Below, one piece after another: positions 46,832 through 64,000 of a stretch of 64,000 nucleotides of DNA. Position numbers and translations under genes: made by a program. The notes beneath the pieces are model-generated. The model worked only from the letters and a program-made list of their open reading frames with translations. It searched no databases and was not told the DNA's origin. Origin of the DNA: Aureimonas sp. Leaf427 (GTDB lineage Bacteria > Pseudomonadota > Alphaproteobacteria > Rhizobiales > Rhizobiaceae); contig NZ_LMQW01000001.1 in the NCBI RefSeq assembly GCF_001425485.1, positions 471,016 through 535,015 of the forward strand, read 5' to 3'. Every line of letters starts with the position of its first letter. Positions within the stretch are counted from its first letter, which is position 1.

Positions 46832-49537
46832 TCAGGTCGAGATCAGCAGCGCGAAGGGCAGATCGTTCGGCAGCTTTCCCAGCTCCAGCGCGGAGCCGAC
46901 CTTCAGCGAGCCGCCCATCAGGCCGTCGTCGTAGTCGAGCCCGGCGAGCTTGCGCGGCAGGACCACGCGCGTGTCGCCCCAGCCGCCCTTGCCGGGTAGG
47001 AACCCGGCCCCGCCCTCGATCAGTGACAGGCAGAGGCGCGGCGCGACGGCGATGGCCGCGCGTCCCTCCGCGTCCGTCCGCGCGAAGGCGACGACATGAG
47101 CGGCCTTCTCGCCCGTCACCTCCAGCGGCACGTAGGCGCCCTTGGTGAAGAGCTCCGGCGCGCTCGCGCGCACCTTGAGCCCGGCCGCGGTGAGCTTGGC
47201 CTTCACATGCCCGTTGCGCCAATGCTCCAGCGCGCCGGTCATGGAATGGCCGTTCGACATGGTCTCCTCGCGGGCCGAGAAGTCGATCGCGCGGCGGTTG
47301 TCGGGATCGACGAGGCTGAGATCGTAGAACTCCGTGCCCTGGTAGATGTCGGGCACGCCCGGCGCCGCCATCTTGATCAGCGTCTGCGACAGCGAGGTCA
47401 GCGCGCCCGCCGCGACGAAGGGCTGAACCTTCTCCCAGAAATCGGCGAGGAAGGTGCCCGACTTCGCCTCGTCCAGCGCGGCGGCGACGAAGTCCTGCAG
47501 CGCGGTCTCGTAAGCTTCCGCCGGCGCGGTCCAGCTCGTGTAGCGCTTGGCCTCGCGCACGGCCTTCTCCATGAAGCCCGCGAGCCGCTTGCCGATCGCC
47601 GCGCGGGCGTCGGCATCCGCCGGGTCGAAATCGGCGGGCAGGACGCCGAGCAGGCCCTGGTAGAACATCCACTCGCTCGCCGGGTCCGGCGAGACGAAGC
47701 CGGGCTCGATCTCGATCCGGAACGGCGCCAGGGCCTCTGCGGCCTCGCGCACGATCTCGGCCCAGCGCCCGGGCGCCTCGCTCAACGTATAGAGCCGCGC
47801 GCGGGCATCCTCGCCGCGCTTGGTGTCGTGCGTGGAGGTCGCGAGCAGGCCCTCCGGCTGGTCCTCGACGCGGATCTCCATCGCCTCGTGGAAGGCCGAG
47901 ACCGGCGCGCCGTAATGGTCGGGCTCGCCGCCGACCTCGTTCAGCGCGATCAGGCGGTTGTAGCGGTAGAAGACCGTGTCCTCCACGGCCTTCGCCATGA
48001 CCGCGCCCGTCGTCTGCTGGAAGCGGCGGGTGAAGTTCAGGGCGCCGGCGACGTCGCGTCCGTCCTCGAAGTCGAGCTTGAGCAGGCGGCCGATGAAGTC
48101 GATCGGCTCGTCCGCCTCCACCTCGCGGCGCGATTTTGCGAGCGTCACGGCATCGTCGATGATCGCGACGTCCTTCTGCGGCACGCCCTCGACGCCGACA
48201 TAGGTCCGGTAGACGGGAAGCGCGGCGGCGACCTCGACGATGGAGCGCGAGATCGTGTCCTGTCCGAGATCGCGCGTGGCGAGCCCGCGCGAGGCGACGC
48301 CGAGCGCCTCCGCCGAGAGATAGGCAAGTTCGCCCGCGAGGTTGCGCGAGAAGATCGAGCGCTTCTGACCGAGGATCATGGCGCGCAGATCCTCCTCCTG
48401 GCCGAGGAAGCCGGCATAGGCCTCCGTCATCGCCTCTTCCTGGGAGGAATCCACGTAGAGACCCGCGAGCGCGGTGATGAACTCGTAGCCGGTCGTGCCC
48501 TCGATCTTCCAGGAGGTGCGCAGCCGCTCCTCGCCGGTCAGGATCTTCTCGACATGGATCAGCGGCTCGCGCCGGACCGACTGGAAGGCCTGCTTCAGGT
48601 CTTCCAAATAGGCCTTCGGATCGGCGAGGCCGTCGACATGGTCGATGCGGATGCCGTCGAGCCTGCGCTCGCGGGCGAGCCGGATGACGGTGCGGTGCGA
48701 GTCGCGGAAGACGTGGCGCAGCTCCTGGCGCACGCCGATCAGATCGGCGATCTCGAAGAAGCGGCGATAGGTCAGCTTCTCGCGCGCCGTGCGCCACCAG
48801 GCGAGGCGCCAGACCTGCGCCTCGTGGAGATCGTGCAGCGCGGCCTTGTTGGCGTTCATCGCGGAGACGGCGGCGTCGAGCGCCGTGGCGAAGCTCGCCT
48901 CCGCCAGATGCTCGCGGAGCCGCTCGGTCAGTTCCTCCGCCTCGACCGGCGTCGCGACGGCGAAGCGGCGGATCAGCCGGTCGCGCTCGGGATGGTCGAG
49001 AAAGCCGAAGATCGCCCCCAGCGTGCGCGGATCGAGCGGCAGCTCGTAGCCGGCCGCGTCGAAGCGAAGGCGCGCGCGCTCGGTGTCGAGCACGACGGAG
49101 AGATCACCGGACGCCGCCGCCTCGCCATAGGGCTTGCCGAGCACCGGGATGAGCACCTTCTCGGCGTCCCAGGCGATGTCGAACGTGTGCGCATGGCGGC
49201 TGTCGCGGCCCCAGGCCAGCACGTCCTCCCACCAGGCGTTCTCCGGCGAGACGCCCATATGGTTCGGCACGAAGTCGAGCAGCAGCCCGATGTCGCGGCC
49301 CGACAGCGCGTCGCTCATGGCGAGAAAGCCCTCGTCGCCGCCGAGATTCTCCTCGAAGGCGTTGTAGTCGACGACGTCGTAGCCGTGGGTCGAGCCGGGC
49401 GAGGCCGAGAAGATCGGCGAGGCGTAGAGATGGCTGACGCCGAGGGTCTGGAGATAGGGCGCCAGCGCCCGGGCCGTCTCGAAGTCCGTCCCCTCCCGGA
49501 ACTGGAGCCGGTAGGTGGCGATCAGGGTGCGGCTCAT
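46832..49537 (-). CDS. treY: Maltooligosyl trehalose synthase
   Basis: A 901-residue GH13 enzyme that turns the reducing-end alpha-1,4 bond of maltodextrins into alpha,alpha-1,1, giving maltooligosyl trehalose for TreZ. Early motifs are ATYRLQFREGTDFETARALAPYL, HLYASPIFSASPGSTHGYDVVDY and LLLDFVPNHM. The catalytic stretch RLDGIRIDHVDGL holds the nucleophile Asp, then EKILTGEE, TTGYEF and ATSTHDTKRGEDARARL. The C-terminal VPDIYQGTE is also typical. ATG at 49537 overlaps the malQ stop (ATGA). It is the last gene of treZ-malQ-treY and convergent with the anchored unknown gene. The frame is open far upstream but overlaps malQ there. Confidence 0.95.
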   Translation of the reverse strand: MSRTLIATYRLQFREGTDFETARALAPYLQTLGVSHLYASPIFSASPGSTHGYDVVDYNAFEENLGGDEGFLAMSDALSGRDIGLLLDFVPNHMGVSPENAWWEDVLAWGRDSRHAHTFDIAWDAEKVLIPVLGKPYGEAAASGDLSVVLDTERARLRFDAAGYELPLDPRTLGAIFGFLDHPERDRLIRRFAVATPVEAEELTERLREHLAEASFATALDAAVSAMNANKAALHDLHEAQVWRLAWWRTAREKLTYRRFFEIADLIGVRQELRHVFRDSHRTVIRLARERRLDGIRIDHVDGLADPKAYLEDLKQAFQSVRREPLIHVEKILTGEERLRTSWKIEGTTGYEFITALAGLYVDSSQEEAMTEAYAGFLGQEEDLRAMILGQKRSIFSRNLAGELAYLSAEALGVASRGLATRDLGQDTISRSIVEVAAALPVYRTYVGVEGVPQKDVAIIDDAVTLAKSRREVEADEPIDFIGRLLKLDFEDGRDVAGALNFTRRFQQTTGAVMAKAVEDTVFYRYNRLIALNEVGGEPDHYGAPVSAFHEAMEIRVEDQPEGLLATSTHDTKRGEDARARLYTLSEAPGRWAEIVREAAEALAPFRIEIEPGFVSPDPASEWMFYQGLLGVLPADFDPADADARAAIGKRLAGFMEKAVREAKRYTSWTAPAEAYETALQDFVAAALDEAKSGTFLADFWEKVQPFVAAGALTSLSQTLIKMAAPGVPDIYQGTEFYDLSLVDPDNRRAIDFSAREETMSNGHSMTGALEHWRNGHVKAKLTAAGLKVRASAPELFTKGAYVPLEVTGEKAAHVVAFARTDAEGRAAIAVAPRLCLSLIEGGAGFLPGKGGWGDTRVVLPRKLAGLDYDDGLMGGSLKVGSALELGKLPNDLPFALLIST

Positions 49538-51411
49538 GCGCTCTCCGGTGTCTGATGAGGGCCCGGACGCTCCAGGCGAAGGGCTTCGGCGACGCTGCCG
49601 AAACCGCGATGGGTGGCGAGGTCTTCCAGCGGCACGGACTGGCGGATGCGCCAGTTCGGATATTCGTCCATCGTGCCCGGCAGGTTGGGCTGGCGGTCGG
49701 AGCCGACCATGTCCTCGATCTGCGCGGCGACGAGAAGGCTGGGGGACCGCGCGAGGAACCGGTGGACGGCGTCCGATAGGTCCTGCTCCAGCCGGCCCGG
49801 CAGCGGGTCCTCGCCGGTGGCGGCGCGGTCGTAAGGCTCGGGCAGAACCGTCTCCTCCTTCAGCGCCGCCAGAAGCAGGCGCCGGTCGCGCTTGCGCTCC
49901 TCGCGCTGCGTTTCCGTCCGCTCGGGGCTCTGGCGGCCGGTCTCGGCGCGAAGGCCGATGTCGATCGCCTGCCACCAGCCGGTCAGCGTCGGCAGGTCGT
50001 GGGTGGAGATGCAGGCCAGCGCGAGCTCGGGATAGGCCGAGGGCGGCAGGAAGGCGATCTCGCCGTGCCGCTCGAAATAGAGGACGCGGTAGGAGAGGAC
50101 GCCCGCCTCCGTCATCACATGGCGAAAACCGGGTGGCACGGTGCCGAGATCCTCGCCGATGACGAGGCAATGGTTCGAGGTGGAGGCGCGGGAGACCGTG
50201 TCCACCATGCGTCCCAGCGGATAGCGCACATAGCCGCCGCCGCCGGAATTGCGCCCCTCCGGGATCAGCCAGAGGCGGGCAAGGCCCATCGCGTGGTCGA
50301 TGCGGATCGCGCCGGCATGGCGCGTCAGCGCGTCGAAGGTCTCGGCCAGCGGCTCGTAGTTCCGGTCCGCCAGCGCTTTGGGCGAATAGGGCGCGATGCC
50401 CCAGTCCTGGCCGGAGGAGTTGAACATGTCGGGCGGCGAGCCGATGCGCGCCGTCTTCATGGTCAGCTCCGCGTCGAGCCAGGTTTCCGCGCCGTCCGAC
50501 GCGACGCCGACGGCGAAATCGAGATAGAGCCCGATCCGCATCCCGGCGTCCCGCGCCCGGGCCTGCGCCTCGCCGAGCTGGCGATCGGCCGTGTACTGGA
50601 GCCAGACGTGGAAGAGGATGTCGTCTTCCGCCTCTTCGGCGAAGGCGGCGACGTCCGCCGAGGCGTGGTCGCGATAGGCCTCCGGCCAGGAGTGCCAGCC
50701 GGCATGGTGCCCCTCGCGGACCATCCGGGCCGACAGGGACTCGAAGAGCGCGAAGGCCCGCAACGAGTCCCCACCGCCGGCCATGAACCGATCGAAATCA
50801 TCGTCGCCGACGATCGCCTCGCGCCCAGCGTCGAAGAGGGTGCGCAGCACGGCGCTCTTGATCCGCCCGATCGCGGCATAGTCGATGATGTCGCCGGACA
50901 GCGCCTCGAAATCCGCCGCCATCGCGGCCTTCGCCTCGTCGAGCGCCGCCCGGCCGCCCGGCAGCTTGTCGACCGCGATGTAGAGCGGATTGAGGAAGCG
51001 CCGGCTGGAAGGCGAGTAGGGGCTGCAGCGGGCGGCGTCCGCCATGAAGAGCGCATGGAGCGGGTTCACCCCGACGAAATCGGCCCCGACATCGGCCGCG
51101 ATCACGGCAAGCGCGGCGAGATCCTCGAAATCGCCGATCCCGAGATTGCGGCCGGAGGACAGGCTGTAAAGCTGGCAGGCGATGCCCCAGGCCTTGTGGT
51201 GCCGCAGGGTCTCCGGCACCTCGCAGCGGCTCGTCGCCGGGTCGAGGTTCTCGTCGAACGTGCCGAAGGCCTCGCCCTCGGGGTCGACGCCGAGCGCCCG
51301 GAGCAGGGCGATCTTCGACGGATCGTCGATGACCTTGCGCTCGCCGAGTTCGGAAATGTAGCCGATCTGGATTCCGTGGCTTTCGGCGAGGCGGTCGAGC
51401 TTGTCGGTCAT
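49534..51411 (-). CDS. malQ: 4-alpha-glucanotransferase (amylomaltase)
   Basis: A 625-residue GH77 enzyme that transfers alpha-1,4-glucan segments between maltodextrins, producing chains long enough for TreY and GlgB. Typical stretches are WGIACQLYSLSSGRNLGIGDFEDL, SPYSPSSRRFLNPLYI, QDWGIAPYSPKAL, the nucleophile region GAIRIDHAMGLARLW, VIGEDLGTVPPG and SYRVLYFE, with STHDLPTLTGWW near the end. The ATG at 51411 begins one base after the treZ stop, and its own stop overlaps treY, so translation of the three genes is coupled. Its location between treZ and treY is a recurring arrangement in trehalose operons. Confidence 0.94.
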   Translation of the reverse strand: MTDKLDRLAESHGIQIGYISELGERKVIDDPSKIALLRALGVDPEGEAFGTFDENLDPATSRCEVPETLRHHKAWGIACQLYSLSSGRNLGIGDFEDLAALAVIAADVGADFVGVNPLHALFMADAARCSPYSPSSRRFLNPLYIAVDKLPGGRAALDEAKAAMAADFEALSGDIIDYAAIGRIKSAVLRTLFDAGREAIVGDDDFDRFMAGGGDSLRAFALFESLSARMVREGHHAGWHSWPEAYRDHASADVAAFAEEAEDDILFHVWLQYTADRQLGEAQARARDAGMRIGLYLDFAVGVASDGAETWLDAELTMKTARIGSPPDMFNSSGQDWGIAPYSPKALADRNYEPLAETFDALTRHAGAIRIDHAMGLARLWLIPEGRNSGGGGYVRYPLGRMVDTVSRASTSNHCLVIGEDLGTVPPGFRHVMTEAGVLSYRVLYFERHGEIAFLPPSAYPELALACISTHDLPTLTGWWQAIDIGLRAETGRQSPERTETQREERKRDRRLLLAALKEETVLPEPYDRAATGEDPLPGRLEQDLSDAVHRFLARSPSLLVAAQIEDMVGSDRQPNLPGTMDEYPNWRIRQSVPLEDLATHRGFGSVAEALRLERPGPHQTPESA

Positions 51412-51412
51412 G

Positions 51413-53317
<1,905 letters not shown>

Positions 53318-53571
53318 CGATGTCCCTTTCATCGGTGGCCGGCTAGCGATCACCCGAAGGCGGGCGCGACGGGAGCTTTCGACGACCTTCGTCCCGTCCG
53401 AAGGTTTCAGTCGTCGAGAGGTTCCCCGTCCGGTCGCGGCTCTGGTCGCTATACGGCGGTGTTCCCGTCTAATTGGGGCGCGGTCGTCGCCCGGCATGGG
53501 CGGTGGCGGCACGACTTCGCGTCGCACGCATCTGTCGAGCGGCCGTTCGAGCCGCCCGATCCGTCACTCCG

Positions 53572-54711
53572 TCAGGCGGCGGCGGGCACGGTGCCGCCGG
53601 TCTCCTCGGCCGCTTCCTCCAGCCCGCCCGTCGCATGGCCGGAGCCGACGCGGCCGTGGACGAGATCGTGGATGAAGCCGATCTTGGCGATGACGGTCGG
53701 CGAGAGCACAAAGGGATAGACGTCCTTCTGGCCCATGGAGCGGTTCAGCGAGTTCAGCGCGGAGGACAGCGCGTACCAGGCCTCGGAGATCTGATCGATC
53801 GTCGTCGAGGAATCGAAGACCGTGAAGTCGAGATCGGTCGTCAGGATGCCCTCGCGGTCGAGGCGCGGATGGAGCGTGATGCCCCAGGAACCGCCGGTCT
53901 CCAGCGAATCGACGATGTGGAGATAGTGCGCCCAGGTCTCCGCGAAGTCCTCCCAGGCATGGGCGCCCGCATAGGCCGAGACGAAGTCGTCCTGCCAGTC
54001 GGGCTTCGGGCCGTTGGCGTAATGCGCCTTCAGCGCCTCGCCGTAGTCCACCGTGTCGTCGCCGAAGACCGCGCGGCACTCTTCGAGCACGCCGCCGTCG
54101 CGCACCAGCCGGTCCCAGTACCAATGGCCGACCTCGTGGCGGAAATGGCCGAGCAGCGTGCGGTAGGGCTCGCCCATGGCCGTGCGCCGGCGCTCGCGCT
54201 CGGCATCGTCCGCCTCGGCGAGCGAAATGGTGATGAGCCCGTCCTGATGCCCCGTCAGGACCTTCTCCTCGCTCGTCGGATCGTCGCCGAGAAACTCGAA
54301 GGCAAGGCCCTCGGGATGCTCGTTCCGGTCGGGCAGCGGCAGGTCGAGGCGCAGGAGCGTGTAGATCAGCCGCTGCTTGGCGAATTCCATGCGCTGCCAG
54401 AGCATCATGTTCTCGGGGCGCGACAGGTCGGGGATGACGCGGTTGTAGCGCGAGGCGAGCGACAGGCGCTCCGGGCTGTCGGCGGGAAGCAGCCAGTTGC
54501 AGACGGCATATTCGTAGTTCGCGCAGTACTTCCACTTGGAGCCGTCCGACTTGCGGCCGACCGAGGTCCAGAAGCCCGTCTCCGCGTCGGGCTCCAGCGC
54601 GAGCATGCGATTCGTCAGCGGCTCGTAGCCGATCGCATGCTGGCAACGCTCGCATTTCGTGTTGTTGAAGAACACGACATTGTCGCAGGACGGGCACGAA
54701 AAGAGTTTCAT
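53572..54711 (-). CDS. Putative zinc-binding metallopeptidase (Peptidase_Mx type)
   Basis: A 379-residue cytoplasmic protein. The N-terminus is a zinc ribbon with Cys6, Cys9, Cys20 and Cys23 (CPSCD, CERC). The catalytic zinc motif is HEVGH at 192-196 within GHFRHEVGHWYWDRLV, and a conserved downstream stretch is DFVSAYAGAHAWEDFAETWAHYLHI. This is the family annotated as putative zinc-binding metallopeptidase (PF15887), whose substrate is unknown. ATG at 54711 has a weak ribosome site. It is divergent, 213 bases away, from the transglutaminase/ATP-grasp operon, so the two may share control and pathway. A proteolytic partner of the ligase system is a reasonable inference only. Confidence 0.85.
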   Translation of the reverse strand: MKLFSCPSCDNVVFFNNTKCERCQHAIGYEPLTNRMLALEPDAETGFWTSVGRKSDGSKWKYCANYEYAVCNWLLPADSPERLSLASRYNRVIPDLSRPENMMLWQRMEFAKQRLIYTLLRLDLPLPDRNEHPEGLAFEFLGDDPTSEEKVLTGHQDGLITISLAEADDAERERRRTAMGEPYRTLLGHFRHEVGHWYWDRLVRDGGVLEECRAVFGDDTVDYGEALKAHYANGPKPDWQDDFVSAYAGAHAWEDFAETWAHYLHIVDSLETGGSWGITLHPRLDREGILTTDLDFTVFDSSTTIDQISEAWYALSSALNSLNRSMGQKDVYPFVLSPTVIAKIGFIHDLVHGRVGSGHATGGLEEAAEETGGTVPAAA

Positions 54712-54924
54712 CGGAAGGCCTTTTGGGGCGCTCTGAATCGGCGCGGAGGAGTTTGTGGCTAATGCGAGGCGGATTTGTCGGTTCCGCTCCTCTCGTGTGC
54801 ATTGCAAAAATACTTTGACAGGACGGGGCCCGGCGCATCTCTATCGGGATGCCGGGCGAGACCCTATGGTCGCGCGAAACCAGCCGCTTCCCCGCGCTCC
54901 CGCAGCGCTGACCGAAGAGTGCCG

Positions 54925-57900
54925 ATGTCGATCCTCGCAGCCGTCCATCATGTCACGCACTACACGTACGACCGGCCGGTCAATCTGGCGCCGCAGACGG
55001 TGCGTCTGCGACCCGCGCCGCATTCGCGTACGCGCGTTCCATCATATTCGCTGAAGGTCACGCCCGAGAACCACTTCGTCAACTGGCAGCAGGACCCGTT
55101 CGGCAACTACCTCGCCCGCTTCGTGTTTCCGGAGAAGGCGACGGAGTTCAAGATCGAGGTCGACCTCGTCGCCGACATGACGGTCTACAATCCCTTCGAC
55201 TTCTTCGTCGAAGACTATGGAAGCGCCTGGCCCTTCGAGTACGAGGAGGGCCTAAAGACCGATCTCCTCGCCTATCTCGGGCCTGAGGAGGCCGGTCCGC
55301 GCCTTGCCGAGTTCCTGCGCGATCTCGACCGGTCGGAGACCCACACGGTCGACTTCCTCGTCGGGCTGAACCGGCTCCTGTCGCAGAAGATCGGATATCT
55401 CATCCGCATGGAGCCCGGCGTGCAGACGCCGGAGGAGACGCTGGAGCGCGCGTCCGGCTCCTGCCGCGACACGTCCTGGCTGCTCGTCCAGATCATGCGC
55501 CAGCTGGGTTTCGCCGCGCGCTTCGTCTCGGGCTACCTGATCCAGTTGAAGCCCGACCTCGTCGCGCTGGACGGGCCGGCCGGCACCACGGTGGACTTCA
55601 CCGATCTCCACGCCTGGGCCGAGGTCTATCTGCCCGGCGCCGGCTGGATCGGCCTCGATCCGACCTCCGGCCTCATGACGGGCGAGAGCCACGTTCCGCT
55701 GGCCGCGACCCCGCACTACCGCTCGGCCGCCCCGATCTCGGGCGCGGTGGACTATGCGGAGGTCGAGTTCGCCTTCGAGATGACGGTCGACCGCATCGCC
55801 GAGCGCCCGCGCGTCTCCGCCCCCTTCGACGACGAGAGCTGGGCGGCGCTCGACGCGCTCGGCGAACAGGTCGATGCCGAGCTGATCGCCAACGACGTCC
55901 GCCTCACCATGGGCGGCGAGCCGACCTTCGTCTCGATCGACGATTTCCAGGGCGACGAGTGGAACGCCTCCGCCACGGGCCCGACCAAGCGCGCGCTCGC
56001 CGACGATCTCATCCGGCGCCTGCGCGACCGCTTCGCGCCCGGCGGCTTCCTGCATTACGGCCAGGGCAAGTGGTATCCCGGCGAGACGCTGCCGCGCTGG
56101 ACCTTCTCGCTCTACTGGCGGCGCGACGGCAAGCCGATCTGGCGCGACGTGAACCTCGTCGCGCGCGAGAAGGCCGATAGCGGCGTCACCGTCGAGCAGG
56201 CGGAGCTTCTGGTGCGCGATGTCGCGGAGGCTCTCGGCGTTCCCGCCGACAACGCGGCGCCCGCCTTCGAGGACCCCGCCTACTGGCTGGTTCGCGAGGC
56301 GCAGCTGCCGGAGAATGTCGAGCCGACCGATTCCAAGCTGGAGGACCCCGAGGAGCGCCTGCGCCTCTCGCGCGTCTTCGACCGGGGCCTCAACAAGGTC
56401 TCGGGCATGGTCCTGCCCATCCAGGCCTGGCAGTCCCAGGCCTTCGGCATCCGCTGGATGTCGGAGCGCTGGGGCACGCGGCGCGGGCACATCTTCCTGA
56501 CCCCCGGCGACAGCCCGGTCGGCTATCGCCTGCCGCTGGGCTCCCTGCCCTATCTCGCCCCCGCGCGCTATCCCTACACCCATCCCGCCGACCCGACCGA
56601 GGAGCGCGGGCCCCTGCCGGACCCCAAGGATCTCGGCCGCAACCAGCGCCGCATCGAGGCGCACGACACGCCGATCTGGAGCCCGCCCCAGCAGGTGAGC
56701 CAGGAGATCTTCGGCTCGGTCCGCACCGCGCTCTCGGTCGAGCCGCGGGACGGCAAGCTCTTCGTCTTCATGCCGCCGCTCGAGACGGTCGAGGCCTATC
56801 TCGACCTCGTCGCCGCGGTCGAGGCCTCGGCGGAGGACCGGAACCTTCCGATCGTCATCGAGGGCTATCCGCCGCCATACGATCCGCGCATCAACGTCGT
56901 GCGCGTCGCGCCCGATCCGGGCGTCATCGAGGTGAACGTCCATCCCGCGACGTCGTGGAAGGAGTGCGTCTCGATCACGCGCACCGTCTACGAGGAGGCG
57001 CGCCAGTCGCGGCTGGGCACCGACAAGTTCATGATCGACGGCAAGCATGCCGGCACCGGCGGCGGCAACCACGTCGTGGTCGGCGGCGCGACGCCGAACG
57101 ATTCGCCCTTCCTGCGCCGGCCGGACCTTCTGAAGTCCTTCGTCCTGCATTGGCAGCGCCATCCCTCGCTGTCCTATCTCTTCTCCGGCCTCTTCGTCGG
57201 CCCGACGAGCCAGGCGCCGCGCGTCGACGAGGCACGGCACGACCAGCTCTACGAGCTGGAGATCGCGATGGCGCAGGTGCCGCTGCCGGGCGAGGGCCTG
57301 CCGCCTCTGCCCTGGCTGGTCGACCGGCTCTTCCGCAACCTTCTCGTGGACGTGACCGGCAACACGCACCGGTCCGAGATCTGCATCGACAAGCTCTATT
57401 CGCCGGACGGCCCGACCGGCCGCCTGGGGCTGGTCGAGTTCCGCGGCTTCGAGATGCCGCCGGACGCGCGCATGTCGCTCGCCCAGCAGCTCCTGATCCG
57501 GGCGCTCGTCGCCAAGTTCTGGAAGGAGCCGCAGACCGGCCGCTTCGCGCGCTGGGGCACCACGCTCCACGACCGCTTCATGCTGCCCGCCTTCCTCTGG
57601 CAGGACTTCCTCGACGTTCTCGCCGATCTCGGCCGCTCGGGCTTTCCGATCCGTTCGGAATGGTTCGAGGCGCAGTCCGAGTTCCGCTTCCCCTTCTGCG
57701 GGAAGATGGAACGCGAAGGCGTCGAGCTGGAACTGCGGCAGGCCCTGGAGCCCTGGCACGTCATGGGCGAGACCGGCGCCATCGGCGGCACCGTGCGCTT
57801 CGTGGATTCCTCGGTCGAGCGGCTTCAGGTGAAGCTCTCGAACTACGATCCCGGCCGCCATGCCGTCACCTGCAACGGCCGCTTCGTGCCGCTGACGCCG

Positions 57901-58242
57901 CTCGCCGGCACGGGCGCGGCGGTGGCGGGCGTACGGTTCAAAGCGTGGCAGCCGGCGTCGGGCCTCCACCCGACGATCCCCGTCCACGCGCCGCTGACCT
58001 TTGACATCTACGATCGCTGGTCGAAGCGCTCGCTCGGGGGTTGCGTCTATCACGTCGCCCATCCCGGCGGCCGGAACTACGACACGTTCCCCGTCAACGC
58101 CAACGAGGCCGAGGCGCGCCGTCTGGCACGCTTCGAGGAACTCGGCCACACGCCGGGCTTCTACGAGCCGCTCCGGGAGGTGCCCGATCCGTCCTTCCCG
58201 ATGACGCTCGACCTCAGACGTCCGTCCGGCCTCGCCCTTTGA
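54925..58242 (+). CDS. Transglutaminase-like domain fused to DUF2126
   Basis: An 1105-residue two-part protein. Residues 1-290 are a bacterial transglutaminase-like cysteine-protease fold with the triad Cys180 (GSCRDTSW), His229 (DLHAWAEV) and Asp245 (GLDPTSG). From about residue 315 on is DUF2126 (COG4196): [86 protein letters not shown]2126 has been proposed to belong to the glutamine synthetase/GCS-type carboxylate-amine ligases; the GGGNH and EVN stretches fit a nucleotide/metal site. No signal peptide. ATG at 54925 follows GAAGAG. First gene of an operon with the ATP-grasp and second transglutaminase genes. Confidence 0.9.
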
Positions 58243-58289
58243 GCGCAGCGCCTGTCGAAGAAACGAAGACGAAGGCCGGCAAGGACGCG

Positions 58290-60671
58290 ATGGCCGCGTT
58301 CCTGTCGGCCTATCGCAGGCAGCCCGGCGTCTACGACGAGATGCTGGACGAAGCGGGCGAGATCCGCCCCCACTACCGGCCGCTGATCGAGGCGCTCGCC
58401 GCCATGGCCCCGGCCGAGCGCGCGGCGCGCTTCCGCTCGTCGCGGCAATACTTGCGCGAGGCCGGCGTCTTCTACCGCGTCTACGGCACGGGCTCCTCGG
58501 AGGACGACCGCGGCTGGCCGCTGGCCCATCCGGCCCTCGTCATCGAGCCGAAGGAATGGGCCGAGCTCGAAGCCGGCCTCGTCCAGCGCGCGAGCTTTCT
58601 CGAAAAGCTCGGCGGCGACCTCTACGGCACGCGCTCGCTGATCGCCAAGGGCCACCTGCCCGCCGCCCTCGTCGGCCGCAACCCGGAATTCCTGCGCCCG
58701 CTCGGGCGCCAGGGCCTGATGGGCAAGCCGTTGATCCGCTTCATCGCGGTCGATCTCGGCCGTGGGCCGGACGGGCGCTGGTGGGTGCTCGGCGACCGCA
58801 CGCAGGCGCCCTCGGGCGCAGGCTTCGCGCTGGAGAACCGCGTCGCGACGTCGAGGGCCTTCCCGGAGATCGCCGCGGAGCTGAAGGTCCAGCGCATCGC
58901 GGGGTTCTTCGGCAAGTTCCGCGATTCGCTCTTTGCGCTGAACGGCAGCGGCATCCAGTCCCGCATCGGGCTTCTGACGCCGGGCCCCGCCAACGAGACC
59001 TATTTCGAGCACGCCTATCTCGCGCGCTATCTCGGCTTCCTGCTTCTGGAGGGCGGCGATCTCGTCGTGCACGGCAGCTCGGTCGAGGTGCGCACCGTCG
59101 ACGGCTTCAAGCCGCTGCGCGTCCTCTGGCGCCGGCTCGACGCCGATTTCGCCGACCCGCTGGAACTCTTCCCGAAGAGCTATATCGGCACGCCCGGCCT
59201 CGTGCGGGCGGTGCGCTCGGGCGAGGTCGAGGTGGTCAACGCGCTGGGCTCGGGCATTCTGGAGACGCGCGCCCTCCTCGCCTTCCAGCCGAGTCTGGCC
59301 GAGGCGCTCCTCGGCACGGGGCTGAAACTTCCGACGATCGCCACATGGTGGGGCGGCACGCCCGCCGCCAAGGCCTTTCTGGAAAAGCAGGCCGAGCGCC
59401 TGTCCTTCGACAGCGCCTTCCCGCCGGGCGCCAGCGCCGCCGGCCCGGTCGCGCGCAGCCGGGAGGCGCTGCGGGCGGAGCTTTCGCTCGACGCGCTCGG
59501 CGTCGTCGGGCAGGAGGTCGCCGCCCTTTCCACCGCGCCCGTCTTCGTCGGCGACAGGCTGGAGGCGCGCCCGGTCGCGCTGCGCGTCTTCCTGGCGCGC
59601 AACGAGGACGGCTGGCACGTCATGCCGGGCGGCTTTGCCCGCGTCGCGGACGCGACGAGCGCCACCGCCGTCTCCATGCAGGCGGGCGGTCGCTCGATCG
59701 ACGTCTGGGTGGGATCGCAGACGGAGGCGCAGCCGATCACGCTGCTCGGGCCGCCGCAGGCCCGCTTCATCCGCCGCGTGCCCGGCGCGCTGCCGGCCAG
59801 AGCCGCCGACAATCTCTACTGGCTCGGCCGCTATGCCGAGCGCGCGGAGGTCGCGACCCGCCTTCTGCGCCTTCACGCGGCGCGAACCGCCGTGGCGAGG
59901 CCCGGCCTTCTGGAGGAAGCGGTCAAAACGCTTCTGGCGCAGCTCGGCGTCGACATCGCGGAGGAAAAGCCCGCGCGCGGCCTCCTGACGCTCGTTCGCG
60001 GCGCCTTCGACATCGCCTCGCGCATCCGCGACCGCTTCTCGCCGGACGGCTGGCGCGTCCTCGGCGAGATCGTAGAGCTTCTGTCGGACAGTCTCGAGGG
60101 AGAGAAGCCGAGCGATCTCGCCGACGTCACCAGCGCCGTCCTGACGCGCCTTGCCGGCTTCACAGGACTGGTGCGCGAGAACATGTACCAGTTCGCGGGC
60201 TGGCGGTTTCTCTCCTGCGGCCGCTCGCTCGAGCGCGCGCGCTCGACCGCGACCGTCGCCTCGCGCCTGATCGGCACGGATGCGCCGGAAGGCGCGCTCG
60301 AGGCGCTGCTGGAATTCGTCGACAGCCGCGTGACCTACCGCCGGCGCTACTCCGTGACGCTCTCGCCGCAGACGGTGCTGGATCTGGCCGTGCTCGATCC
60401 CCTCAACCCGCGCTCCGTCGCCTTCCAGGTCAATGCCCTGAAGGAGACGATCGGCCAGCTTCCGGGCGTGCAGCCCGGCGCCTCGCTCGACCAGCTCTCG
60501 CGCCGCATCGCGCGGCTGCAGGTCCGGCTCGTGACCGCCGGGCCGGTGGAGGTGGATCAGGCCTTCCTCGACCGCATCGCCAGGGATCTCGGCGAAATCT
60601 CCGATCTTCTCGGCCAGCGCTACTTCGCGGCGGGGCCGGACACGGTCCATCAGGGGCTCGACCACGAATGA
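58290..60671 (+). CDS. Circularly permuted ATP-grasp protein fused to alpha-E domain
   Basis: A 793-residue fusion. The first 470 residues are a circularly permuted type 2 ATP-grasp ligase: RRQPGVYDEMLDEAGEIRPHY, GTGSSEDDRGWPL, FIAVDLGRGPDGRWWVLGDR, GFALENRVATSRAFPE, VHGSSVEVRTVDGFKPLRVLWRR, and LGSGILETRALLAF. Residues about 495-790 are the all-helical alpha-E domain (ADNLYWLGRYAERAEV, ENMYQFAGWRFLSCGRSLERA). Such proteins are predicted to form peptide bonds on small peptides or proteins. ATG at 58290 has AGGA upstream and matches the conserved N-terminus; a TTG at 58239 overlapping the previous stop would add 17 residues. The stop overlaps the next start (ATGA). Confidence 0.9.
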   Translation: MAAFLSAYRRQPGVYDEMLDEAGEIRPHYRPLIEALAAMAPAERAARFRSSRQYLREAGVFYRVYGTGSSEDDRGWPLAHPALVIEPKEWAELEAGLVQRASFLEKLGGDLYGTRSLIAKGHLPAALVGRNPEFLRPLGRQGLMGKPLIRFIAVDLGRGPDGRWWVLGDRTQAPSGAGFALENRVATSRAFPEIAAELKVQRIAGFFGKFRDSLFALNGSGIQSRIGLLTPGPANETYFEHAYLARYLGFLLLEGGDLVVHGSSVEVRTVDGFKPLRVLWRRLDADFADPLELFPKSYIGTPGLVRAVRSGEVEVVNALGSGILETRALLAFQPSLAEALLGTGLKLPTIATWWGGTPAAKAFLEKQAERLSFDSAFPPGASAAGPVARSREALRAELSLDALGVVGQEVAALSTAPVFVGDRLEARPVALRVFLARNEDGWHVMPGGFARVADATSATAVSMQAGGRSIDVWVGSQTEAQPITLLGPPQARFIRRVPGALPARAADNLYWLGRYAERAEVATRLLRLHAARTAVARPGLLEEAVKTLLAQLGVDIAEEKPARGLLTLVRGAFDIASRIRDRFSPDGWRVLGEIVELLSDSLEGEKPSDLADVTSAVLTRLAGFTGLVRENMYQFAGWRFLSCGRSLERARSTATVASRLIGTDAPEGALEALLEFVDSRVTYRRRYSVTLSPQTVLDLAVLDPLNPRSVAFQVNALKETIGQLPGVQPGASLDQLSRRIARLQVRLVTAGPVEVDQAFLDRIARDLGEISDLLGQRYFAAGPDTVHQGLDHE

Positions 60672-61582
60672 GCATTCGGCGCGATCCCAAGGCCATGGTC
60701 TACGACATCACGCTGAAGTTCGGCTACGACTACCCCTCGGCGGTCAAGGACGCGCGGCACATCCTGCGCCTTCGCCCGCGCGAGACCAAGCGCCAGCACG
60801 TCGCCTCGAAGGTGGTGCGGGTCGATCCCGAGCCGGACGAGACGGTGCGCGAATCCGACTTCTTCGGAAACGGCGTCGATCACCTGCGCCTCTACCGTCC
60901 GCACGAGTCCCTGAAGATCGAGATGCGCGCCCGCATCGCGGTCAAGACGCACGAGCCCGATCTCGGCGCGACGCCGTCGATCGCCGCGCTTCGCAAGGCG
61001 GGGCTCCTCTGCCGCGATACCGGCGCGCAGAGCCCGGTCCACTTCCTCGGCGCGAGCCGCATGCTGCCGGGCTCGCCCCTCGCCACCGCCTTCTACAAGG
61101 AGCGCCTGCCCGATCCCGACGAGCCGGCCGGCCCCGCGCTCCTGCGGCTGACGAAGGAGACCTACGAAGCTTTCACCTACGCCTCCGGCACGACGACGAT
61201 CGAGACGCCGGTGGACACGGTCATGACGACGCGCAAGGGCGTCTGCCAGGACTTCGCCCATGCGATGATCTCGGGCCTTCGCGGCGCCGGCATTCCGGCC
61301 GCCTACGTCTCCGGTTTCCTGCGCACGATCCCGCCCAAGGGCCAGCCGCGCCTGGAAGGCGCCGATGCCATGCACGCCTGGATCGCGGTCTGGCTCGGCG
61401 AGGAGACGGGCTGGGTCGGCTTCGATCCGACCAACGGCGTCGCGGCGGCGGGGGACCATATCGAGGTCGCCATCGGCCGCGACTATGCGGACGTCGCGCC
61501 GATCGGCGGCGTGATCGTCACATCCGGCCCCCAGCGCCTCACCCATTCGGTCGACGTCGCGCCGGTCGAGGAAGCCGGCTAA
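60668..61582 (+). CDS. Transglutaminase family protein
   Basis: A 304-residue transglutaminase-like protein. An N-terminal beta domain (YDITLKFGYDYPSAVKDARHILRLRP) is followed by the catalytic fold with Cys193 (RKGVCQDFAHAM), His236 (DAMHAWIAVW) and Asp253 (GFDPTNG). Members of this group are predicted to cleave or transfer amide bonds and regularly accompany circularly permuted ATP-grasp/alpha-E proteins. It starts within the ATP-grasp stop codon and ends the operon. With the transglutaminase domain of the DUF2126 protein, the locus encodes two such peptidase/transferase folds and two predicted ligases. Confidence 0.92.
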   Translation: MSIRRDPKAMVYDITLKFGYDYPSAVKDARHILRLRPRETKRQHVASKVVRVDPEPDETVRESDFFGNGVDHLRLYRPHESLKIEMRARIAVKTHEPDLGATPSIAALRKAGLLCRDTGAQSPVHFLGASRMLPGSPLATAFYKERLPDPDEPAGPALLRLTKETYEAFTYASGTTTIETPVDTVMTTRKGVCQDFAHAMISGLRGAGIPAAYVSGFLRTIPPKGQPRLEGADAMHAWIAVWLGEETGWVGFDPTNGVAAAGDHIEVAIGRDYADVAPIGGVIVTSGPQRLTHSVDVAPVEEAG

Positions 61583-61688
61583 CGAGCCGTTAGCGCACTT
61601 TAACCACAGACGCCGAAATGCCGACCCGGGTAAGAAAGTATTGGCGTCTCGGCTGCGAAAACAGGGGTGACCGAACAAGAAGCTGACG

Positions 61689-62849
61689 ATGCGTATGGAC
61701 GTTCCCACCCTCTACGGCCTGACGGTCGGAACGCTGTGCCTTGCGGTCGCGATGACGCTGTGGGAGCGCAAGGCCCATCCCGGACGCGCCGGCCCGCTCG
61801 GCATCTGGGCTTCGGCCTACGCGGCCTTCGCCCTCGGCTGCATGGTCATGATGAACCGCTCGTCCTTGCCCGGCGTGCTCGGCATGGCGCTGACGAACGT
61901 CATCATGGTCACGGGCTACCTGCTCGTCCTTCACGGCGCGATCCGGCTCGACGGACGGGGCCGCCCGCTGCTTCTGACCTTGCCGCTCGTCGCGATCAGC
62001 GTCGTCTGGACGGAGTTCGGCGCGCGCTACGGCGACGCCTTCTGGCAGTTCGGCGGGTCGCTGCCGATCCTCCTCGTCAGCTTCGCGACCGCCATCGTGC
62101 TCGCGCGCAGCAGAGCCTTGAAAGGGCTGCGCTCCCGGCCGCTCGCCATCGCCGTCCATCTCGTCCACGGGCTGTTCTATCTCGGCCGCTTCGCCGTGAT
62201 GCCCTTCCTCGCCGAAGCCTTCGGACCGGAAGCGCTCGCGCTCTCGGCCAAGATCACCATGTTCGAGGCGGTGCTCTATTCGGTGGCCATGCCGGCGGCC
62301 TTCCTGGCGCTCGTGCGCGAGGAGGCGCAGGACCGGCTTCTCGCGGCCTCGCAGACGGACTACCTGACCGGCCTCGGCAATCGGCACGCCTTCTTCGAAC
62401 GCGGCGCCGCGTTGATGCGGGACAAGAACGCGCTGACGCTGCTGGCCTTCGATCTCGACCATTTCAAGAGCATCAACGACCGCCATGGCCATGCCGCCGG
62501 CGACGAGGTCCTGAAGCTCTTCGCAGACGTCGCCCGCGCGGGGCTCGGCTCGAACGCCATTCTGGCGCGGCTCGGCGGCGAGGAGTTCGCGGCGCTCCTT
62601 CCGGGCATGGGCGCGAACGAGGCACGGCCTCTCGCCGAGGCGCTCTGCCGGTCCTTCGCGATGGAAGCCGCGAAGGCCGAGGGCCTCGCCATCCGCGCCA
62701 CCGTCAGCGTCGGGCTGGCCGAACGCGAGCCCGAGAGGCCGGACCTGCAGCGCCTTCTCTCGGCCGCCGATCAGGCGCTCTATCGCGCCAAGTCGCTCGG
62801 CCGCGACCGGGTCGAGGCGGCGGCCCCCGCCATCGCAAGGGCCGCCTGA
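61689..62849 (+). CDS. Diguanylate cyclase, membrane sensor with GGDEF domain
   Basis: A 386-residue membrane protein. Six or seven predicted helices lie in the first 210 residues (LYGLTVGTLCLAVAMTLW, NVIMVTGYLLVLHGAI, LPILLVSFATAIVLA and others). A GGDEF domain follows, with DYLTGLGNRHAFFERG, FDLDHFKSINDRHGH and the active-site variant GGEEF at 296-300, which is catalytically competent in other cyclases. Product inhibition is not certain: an upstream RxxD is not obvious. It makes c-di-GMP from GTP. ATG at 61689 is used; a second in-frame ATG lies six bases later. It is monocistronic and convergent with glgB, 15 bases apart. Confidence 0.9.
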   Translation: MRMDVPTLYGLTVGTLCLAVAMTLWERKAHPGRAGPLGIWASAYAAFALGCMVMMNRSSLPGVLGMALTNVIMVTGYLLVLHGAIRLDGRGRPLLLTLPLVAISVVWTEFGARYGDAFWQFGGSLPILLVSFATAIVLARSRALKGLRSRPLAIAVHLVHGLFYLGRFAVMPFLAEAFGPEALALSAKITMFEAVLYSVAMPAAFLALVREEAQDRLLAASQTDYLTGLGNRHAFFERGAALMRDKNALTLLAFDLDHFKSINDRHGHAAGDEVLKLFADVARAGLGSNAILARLGGEEFAALLPGMGANEARPLAEALCRSFAMEAAKAEGLAIRATVSVGLAEREPERPDLQRLLSAADQALYRAKSLGRDRVEAAAPAIARAA

Positions 62850-62864
62850 ACCTCGATCCCGCGA

Positions 62865-64000
<1,136 letters not shown>

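Follow-up and report, generated by a model that had tools for sequence, protein, structure and literature searches.

A 64,000-nucleotide stretch of the genome of Aureimonas sp. Leaf427 (Alphaproteobacteria; Rhizobiaceae in GTDB; contig NZ_LMQW01000001.1, positions 471,016 to 535,015), hereafter the window, carries an operon of three genes that faces the gene for a zinc-ribbon metallopeptidase (Pep). The operon encodes a transglutaminase-like protein fused to DUF2126 (Tgl-DUF2126), a circularly permuted ATP-grasp (CP-ATP-grasp) fused to alpha-E, and a second transglutaminase-like protein (Tgl2). Throughout its kind the fused ATP-grasp has lost the E-x-N motif of its relatives; Pep and DUF2126 are linked in several lineages; the locus has twice become linked to alpha-glucan genes; and Pep is preceded here by a promoter-like element resembling those of the general stress sigma factor EcfG. 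Tentatively, and at appreciably less than an even chance, we propose a stress-linked amide-modification system in which Tgl-DUF2126 would be the core enzyme, Pep would remove or process the modification, and the fused ATP-grasp/alpha-E would be a non-catalytic partner.

The fused protein (58290..60671, plus strand, 793 amino acids; PF14403 and PF04168) has been taken, in a sequence-only reading of this DNA, for one of two predicted amide-forming ligases, DUF2126 being the other. The E-x-N motif binds metal in glutathione and glutathionylspermidine synthetases. Not one of the 151 fused ATP-grasps carries it, in contrast to all 29 standalone Anbu-type relatives, 21 of which come from the family. 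In the window's protein G168-D-R170 stands where the motif is expected; across the 151, the E has given way to G, A or S in 135 proteins and is retained in 2, and R occupies the N position in 146. A further difference lies at position 246, where 16 of 16 standalone proteins have D and 148 of the 151 fused proteins have R. The solved relative 3n6x, named as a putative glutathionylspermidine synthase, matches the CP-ATP-grasp and retains E-x-N. Because the motif is lost, we consider that the fused ATP-grasp/alpha-E is probably not a working ligase, and a count of two working amide ligases in the operon is not supported; for DUF2126, too, no glutamine-synthetase-like match was seen among the best 50 Foldseek rows or in one weak profile comparison. 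The loss also argues against presuming ligase activity for every ATP-grasp in such operons.

The cysteine sites of the operon are, by comparison, well kept. In Tgl-DUF2126 (54925..58242, plus strand, 1105 amino acids; PF08379, PF01841 and PF09899, the last at 1326 bits) the triad C180, H229 and D245 is shared without exception by the 52 aligned proteins, and in Tgl2 (60668..61582, plus strand; PF08379 and PF01841) C193, H236 and D253 are each kept in at least 96% of 149, so that the intact Cys-His-Asp triads read earlier from the sequence in both transglutaminase-like folds prove to be conserved across the family of proteins. An AlphaFold model of Tgl-DUF2126 (mean predicted local distance difference test score, pLDDT, 76.6) matches the transglutaminase-like structure 3isr in Foldseek (E 6e-12), and the Tgl2 sequence matches 3isr and 6g49. 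Identity to the window's Tgl-DUF2126 runs from 56 to 79% across two alignments, and DUF2126 contains many invariant polar residues. The literature searched contained no mention of DUF2126 by that name and no paper naming two of the five relevant COG numbers.

Pep (53572..54711, minus strand, 379 amino acids) matches PF10005 (E 4e-28) and PF15887, Peptidase_Mx (E 5e-103). It has an HExxH motif at residues 192-196 (H192, E193, H196), and its third zinc ligand probably lies within EDFAE (254-258). The zinc-ribbon cysteines, H192-E193-H196 and E254-D255-E258 are kept in at least 96% of 55 Pep proteins, and conservation was also seen in a second alignment of 10. The PF15887 profile, the HExxH and the downstream acidic ligand together point to a Peptidase_Mx-type enzyme. 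The Pep profile gave a weak match to the solved zinc metallohydrolase 9urd (E 0.0014), in which the HExxH and EDF regions were aligned, and Foldseek returned no match at E<=0.001 for the Pep model (pLDDT 80). In the Pep of Aurantimonas marianensis (L123:8724-9803, minus strand) V replaces the catalytic E of HExxH, and this is possibly an inactive copy.

We compared 101 genomes from 100 genera of the family and 289 genomes of the class, the window's genome being included in each sample. The loci compared comprised 50 family, 38 class (outside the family) and 80 named DUF2126 loci, with 29 lone-Pep and 21 Anbu-type loci; the DUF2126 loci of G095 (family) and of G125, G199, G244, G343 and G355 (class), and the lone Pep loci of G029, G049, G089 and G097, were left out. 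In the family, Pep is found in 47 genomes and DUF2126 in 51, with 40 holding both, 7 Pep only, 11 DUF2126 only and 43 neither (Fisher p 4e-11, without phylogenetic correction). In the class there are 19 genomes with full-length Pep (from 25 matches, 6 of them partial and excluded from the count) and 44 with DUF2126, 13 of the 289 holding both (p 6e-8, likewise uncorrected). Pep is a neighbour of DUF2126 in 14 of the 40 family genomes with both, at 3 of 38 class loci and at 9 of 80 named loci. On a FastTree phylogeny of 165 Tgl-DUF2126 proteins (3 of 168 excluded, two short and one identical) this adjacency, present in 25 rows, needs at least 7 changes, and it needs 5 on a tree of 54 Pep proteins. 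When neighbours were clustered, Pep was the commonest upstream one (22 of 165 loci, 10 changes; the direct search finds 25), and GlgP appeared at 28 loci with 3 changes. A neighbour family that by eye resembles an amino-acid ABC permease appeared at 6 of 165 loci, with 6 changes.

The two genes also meet in more than one arrangement. A head-to-head pairing of Pep and Tgl-DUF2126, their start codons 161-884 bp apart, is found in the Aurantimonas clade, Methylobacterium, Hyphomicrobium, a Hyphomicrobiales metagenome-assembled genome (L170) and the family coded f6, and G383 groups with the Methylobacterium head-to-head loci; in the window the separation is 213 bp. Pep lies 3' of the complete operon in three genomes (G015, G074, G039), and in Boseongicola (L149) it directly follows Tgl-DUF2126, the other two operon genes being missing. 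At two further loci, L013 (G042) and L017 (G088), Pep and Tgl-DUF2126 are retained and the fused ATP-grasp and Tgl2 are gone; each of these genomes has one alpha-E, at its Anbu operon, and carries another transglutaminase elsewhere. The G042 locus matches that of Mangrovicella endophytica (L124), and G088 is of the same genus as the window. No common theme was seen, judging by eye, around the lone Pep genes, where the commonest neighbour family reaches 12 of 29 loci. Since co-occurrence and neighbourhood recur in several lineages and arrangements, the conclusion that Pep belongs with the DUF2126 system is supported. The persistence of Tgl-DUF2126 together with the zinc peptidase in two genomes without the fused ATP-grasp/alpha-E gene gives a handle on the substrate.

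Within the family, the locus is often found beside genes of alpha-glucan and trehalose metabolism, which lie within about 10 kb of it at 29 of 50 loci. At 18 of these 29 glgP is downstream (glgB was seen too in 17), and at the other 11, in the Aurantimonas-type clade, treZ-malQ-treY lies behind Pep; 8 of those 11 have glgB on the opposite side and, if the stretch is long enough, treS and a glgE-like gene beyond it. The controls gave 0 of 29 lone-Pep and 0 of 21 Anbu-type loci with alpha-glucan genes. Among the named loci 12 of 80 have tre/glg genes, one being the same locus as that of G042; a TreS-like match near the stretch edge in Henriciella (L154, 34% identity) falls outside the usual pattern. 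The tree needs four changes for the alpha-glucan linkage, of which those at L021 and L143 reflect the end of a contig. There are thus two independent linkages, both within the family: glgP in rhizobia and treZ-malQ-treY in the Aurantimonas-type clade. Each is seen in every tree row with a visible flank (glgP in 28 of 30 rows, treZ-malQ-treY in 12 of 12). The 28 glgP loci of the neighbour count had been picked for having glgP, and so only the tree bears on its retention. The sequence-only reading proposed to check whether Pep and the tre/glg genes accompany the operon in other genomes, their failure to do so counting against it, and raised the possibility of a link to carbohydrate storage or osmotic stress. 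Co-occurrence holds for Pep; that of the tre/glg genes draws support within the family and none at the 38 class loci outside it.

The third line of evidence concerns regulation. On the minus strand at 54761..54785, 74 bp before the start codon of Pep and pointing at it, lies the EcfG-type promoter-like element GGAAC-N16-CATT. The EcfG1 factor of R. etli recognises GGAAC-N16-CGTT (PMC3892343), and a flexible -10 box is reported in Sphingopyxis (PMC7083833). In all 12 Aurantimonas-clade loci GGAAC-N16-[CT][AG]TT points towards Pep from a distance of 72-102 bp to its start codon and with a spacer of exactly N16, the -10 box being CATT in 11 and TGTT in 1; shuffling expects 0.05 of 12 loci with this pattern, whose -10 box was widened after the motif had been noticed in the same loci. 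The clade's intergenic regions are poorly conserved, and when they are anchored on the motif only its own columns reach 11 or 12 of 12. Elsewhere the element occurs at 3 of 9 other head-to-head loci, including both f6 loci, which have the CGTT form 46-50 bp before Pep. Among lone Pep genes GGAAC-N16-CGTT is found in 10 of 29, 55-153 bp upstream, and judging from this motif some members of the family may deploy Pep in the general stress response, whatever its location. The CGTT forms at the f6 loci and at lone Pep genes are independent support for the element. The window's genome encodes NepR.

How might these proteins act together? We hypothesize that the system is probably cytoplasmic and that amide-bond formation, with a peptide, a protein or a small amine as target, is probably the task of the DUF2126 part. 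The cysteine domain of the same protein would hydrolyse or transfer the product, by analogy with glutathionylspermidine synthetase/amidase, the fused ATP-grasp/alpha-E would be a degenerate ligase that serves as substrate binder or regulator, and Tgl2 would be accessory. The zinc metallopeptidase would take off or process the modification. In this lineage EcfG would switch on Pep with treZ-malQ-treY, at a time when storage glucan is converted to trehalose. A more specific version, which we regard as speculative and rather improbable, has Tgl-DUF2126 writing an amide modification that an EcfG-induced Pep, co-transcribed with the tre genes, erases; the mark may single out glycogen enzymes or granules for mobilisation, with the pseudo-ATP-grasp/alpha-E as regulator. 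The stress-type promoter-like element predicts when to look for the substrate, and the sugar-storage locus suggests where.

Several observations weigh against the proposed amide-modification system. The ligase nature of DUF2126 is taken from its Pfam name: no glutamine-synthetase-like match was among the best 50 of 630 Foldseek rows for the full Tgl-DUF2126 model, all 5 matches at E<=0.001 in that set being transglutaminase-like, and hhalign against 23 GCS2 loci gave E 0.42, a weak comparison in which some reading frames were of odd length. The co-occurrence of Pep and DUF2126 is uncorrected for phylogeny; in 26 of 40 family genomes holding both, Pep is not near DUF2126, and DUF2126 is missing from 7 family and 6 class genomes that encode full-length Pep. 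Beyond the family, none of the 38 class loci has alpha-glucan genes, and at 3 of 11 Aurantimonas-type loci glgB is not within the stretch examined. As for the element, the strict EcfG consensus CGTT is found at 0 of 12 clade loci, and the widened pattern was drawn from those loci themselves. No such element precedes Pep at 6 of the 9 other head-to-head loci or where Pep lies 3' of Tgl-DUF2126 (4 of 4 genes); Methylobacterium and Hyphomicrobium lack it before Pep. Upstream of Tgl-DUF2126 it was found at 0 of 28 glgP loci and 1 of 111 others, and the bare pattern showed no genome-wide enrichment (39 matches versus 40 in a backward control). Finally, Pep and treZ stand 254 bp apart and may or may not be co-transcribed.

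The relation to Anbu, a protease known from operons of related composition, requires separate comment. Anbu is indeed missing from the window, as had been stated; it is present in the genome, in a separate CP-ATP-grasp/alpha-E/Anbu operon on another contig (L003; C34: 37000-56900). We examined the Anbu-type loci of 20 genomes and the window's own, out of 84 family genomes with alpha-E. In the Aurantimonas-type clade the operon has a transglutaminase at 0 of 7 loci versus 14 of 14 other family loci (the same at E 0.01), and an Anbu match at 6 of 7 clade loci and 2 of 14 others. The window's genome has only two Bact_transglu_N proteins that we could find, both at the DUF2126 locus. Anbu-type genes lie at the DUF2126 locus in 8 class loci. 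A standalone CP-ATP-grasp/alpha-E pair stands beside the DUF2126 operon in the distant loci L097, L101, L102, L107, L110 and L187, so that the two kinds of system can share one neighbourhood. In L204 (11438-11914, plus strand) and L208 the gene directly after the transglutaminase of an Anbu-type operon encodes a protein of about 160-180 amino acids, which is nearby in L203; the L204 copy has no Pfam match. The idea, hinted at in the sequence-only reading, that the metallopeptidase takes Anbu's place in such a system has some appeal in that both are peptidases adjoining ATP-grasp, alpha-E and transglutaminase genes. However, one genome carries both at separate loci, Anbu having an operon of its own; Pep is at none of the 8 class loci just mentioned, and there is no clean swap either way. 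We rejected replacement as a candidate and regard it as very improbable.

Three other explanations deserve more weight. The two alpha-glucan linkages are suggestive and no proof, and chance linkage kept by descent, in which the neighbourhood merely hitch-hikes and has no functional tie to the operon, is a serious rival that we place, like the main proposal, at appreciably less than an even chance. It gains from there being just two independent linkages on the tree, from a TadG-like gene between Tgl2 and glgP that is likewise kept (24 of 28 loci), and from the restriction of the pattern to the family, with glgB in reach at 8 of 11 loci of the tre clade. What it explains less easily is the steadiness of glgP in the rhizobial clade, where the two rows of 30 that lack it are at contig ends and the best-kept upstream neighbour reaches 8 of 27 loci; moreover, the two linkages involve separate loci that serve a single metabolism, and both sets of control loci are empty.

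The operon could instead produce a short peptide or peptide-amide, rather than a protein tag, which would serve as osmolyte or storage material, be co-produced with trehalose as a stress solute and be recycled by Pep. The two arrangements of trehalose and glycogen genes and the EcfG-like element at the pep-tre unit would suit such a role, and a peptide-synthesis system is among the published ideas on the related Anbu operon (PMC5666114). However, no product or precursor is known, and a neighbour scan that covered open reading frames of at least 90 amino acids, in families without annotation, was not of a kind to show one; we consider this idea somewhat unlikely, if distinctly possible. Slightly less probable still, in our judgement, is a set of transglutaminase-like hydrolases and a zinc peptidase that remodels proteins or the cell envelope, with DUF2126 and the fused ATP-grasp as binding scaffolds rather than ligases. 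The three recognised catalytic sites that are intact (two transglutaminase triads and HExxH) are all of hydrolase or transferase type, and the loss of E-x-N and the want of a ligase fold match for DUF2126 among the Foldseek matches listed fit as well; the strong conservation of Tgl-DUF2126 and its invariant polar residues, however, suggest catalysis.

The remaining features of the locus were largely as first described: the genes and their coordinates were confirmed, and the block is flanked by treZ-malQ-treY on one side and, beyond a GGDEF gene, by glgB on the other. Behind Pep and in its direction lie treZ (maltooligosyltrehalose trehalohydrolase; 51413..53317, minus strand, Met at 53317; TIGR02402, 668 bits), malQ (4-alpha-glucanotransferase; 49534..51411, minus strand; PF02446) and treY (maltooligosyltrehalose synthase; 46832..49555, minus strand, start approximate; PF00128), the last named from gene order and the earlier reading. 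After Tgl2 come the GGDEF gene (61689..62849, plus strand; PF00990) and then, by profile match, the C-terminal part of glgB (62865..64000, minus strand). Past glgB, outside the window, is treS/maltokinase (NCBIfam TIGR02456 and TIGR02457, above cut-offs), and further out a GlgE-like gene, named by context, for which NCBIfam gave only weak alpha-amylase-type matches. Of the 12 clade rows that cover this region, 6 have a relative of the GGDEF protein, which may be a passenger or may contribute cyclic-di-GMP signalling. The stop/start overlap said to tie the last two operon genes together exists, as ATGA at 60668, and a 4-bp overlap occurs in 41 of 149 fused ATP-grasp/Tgl2 pairs (by our own start calling); Tgl2 homologues, however, have their start at the equivalent of the Met at 60695, and this alternative, 27 bases later, is perhaps the true one. 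Scans of 53100-62900 found no sigma-70 promoters or terminators above shuffled sequence. We also tried the four proteins as a defence system and rejected this, PADLOC giving no match.

Systems of this general kind are not new: Iyer et al. (2009) reportedly predicted DUF2126/transglutaminase amidoligase systems built from the same protein families. The EcfG-like element, the loss of E-x-N and the alpha-glucan linkages come from the present analysis. Glutathionylspermidine synthetase/amidase is a papain-like amidase fused to a synthetase and offers a possible parallel to Tgl-DUF2126, and the CP-ATP-grasp here matches 3n6x; we draw the parallel in layout, not in descent of DUF2126 or in chemistry. 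The Anbu operon shares the CP-ATP-grasp, alpha-E and transglutaminase families (PMC5666114, PMC6376114), whereas the DUF2126 locus has ATP-grasp and alpha-E fused, without E-x-N, has the Tgl-DUF2126 enzyme and the zinc peptidase, and lacks an Anbu gene; hypotheses on the Anbu operon were described as unconfirmed to the authors' knowledge (PMC6376114). Related genes surface in other settings too: a review citing a thesis tabulates a metagenomic clone with antinematode activity that carries genes for ATP-grasp, alpha-E, transglutaminase and protease (PMC7764037), and the regulatory regions named in a study of nodule competition in Sinorhizobium include one at a gene for a CP-ATP-grasp, COG2308 (PMC8407117).

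For the trehalose side, the nearest comparison is the treY-malQ-treZ-glgX cluster of Sphingomonas melonis, which has the same trehalose genes and is EcfG-dependent, glgX being a putative indirect target (PMC6599016). It differs in that the main text of that paper does not contain the words 'metallopeptidase' or 'transglutaminase', whereas in the window the element is followed first by Pep. For the peptidase side it is rloABC of Pseudomonas aeruginosa, an operon that encodes a protease, a transglutaminase-like protein and an ATP-grasp, and in which deletion of rloB or rloC is described as rescuing protease mutants under hypoosmotic stress (PMC12239564). Its components, as that paper presents them, are a secreted aspartic protease, an inactive membrane transglutaminase domain and an ATP-grasp compared with RimK, rather than a zinc peptidase and a CP-ATP-grasp. 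By analogy the two systems may nevertheless work alike, though their protein families differ.

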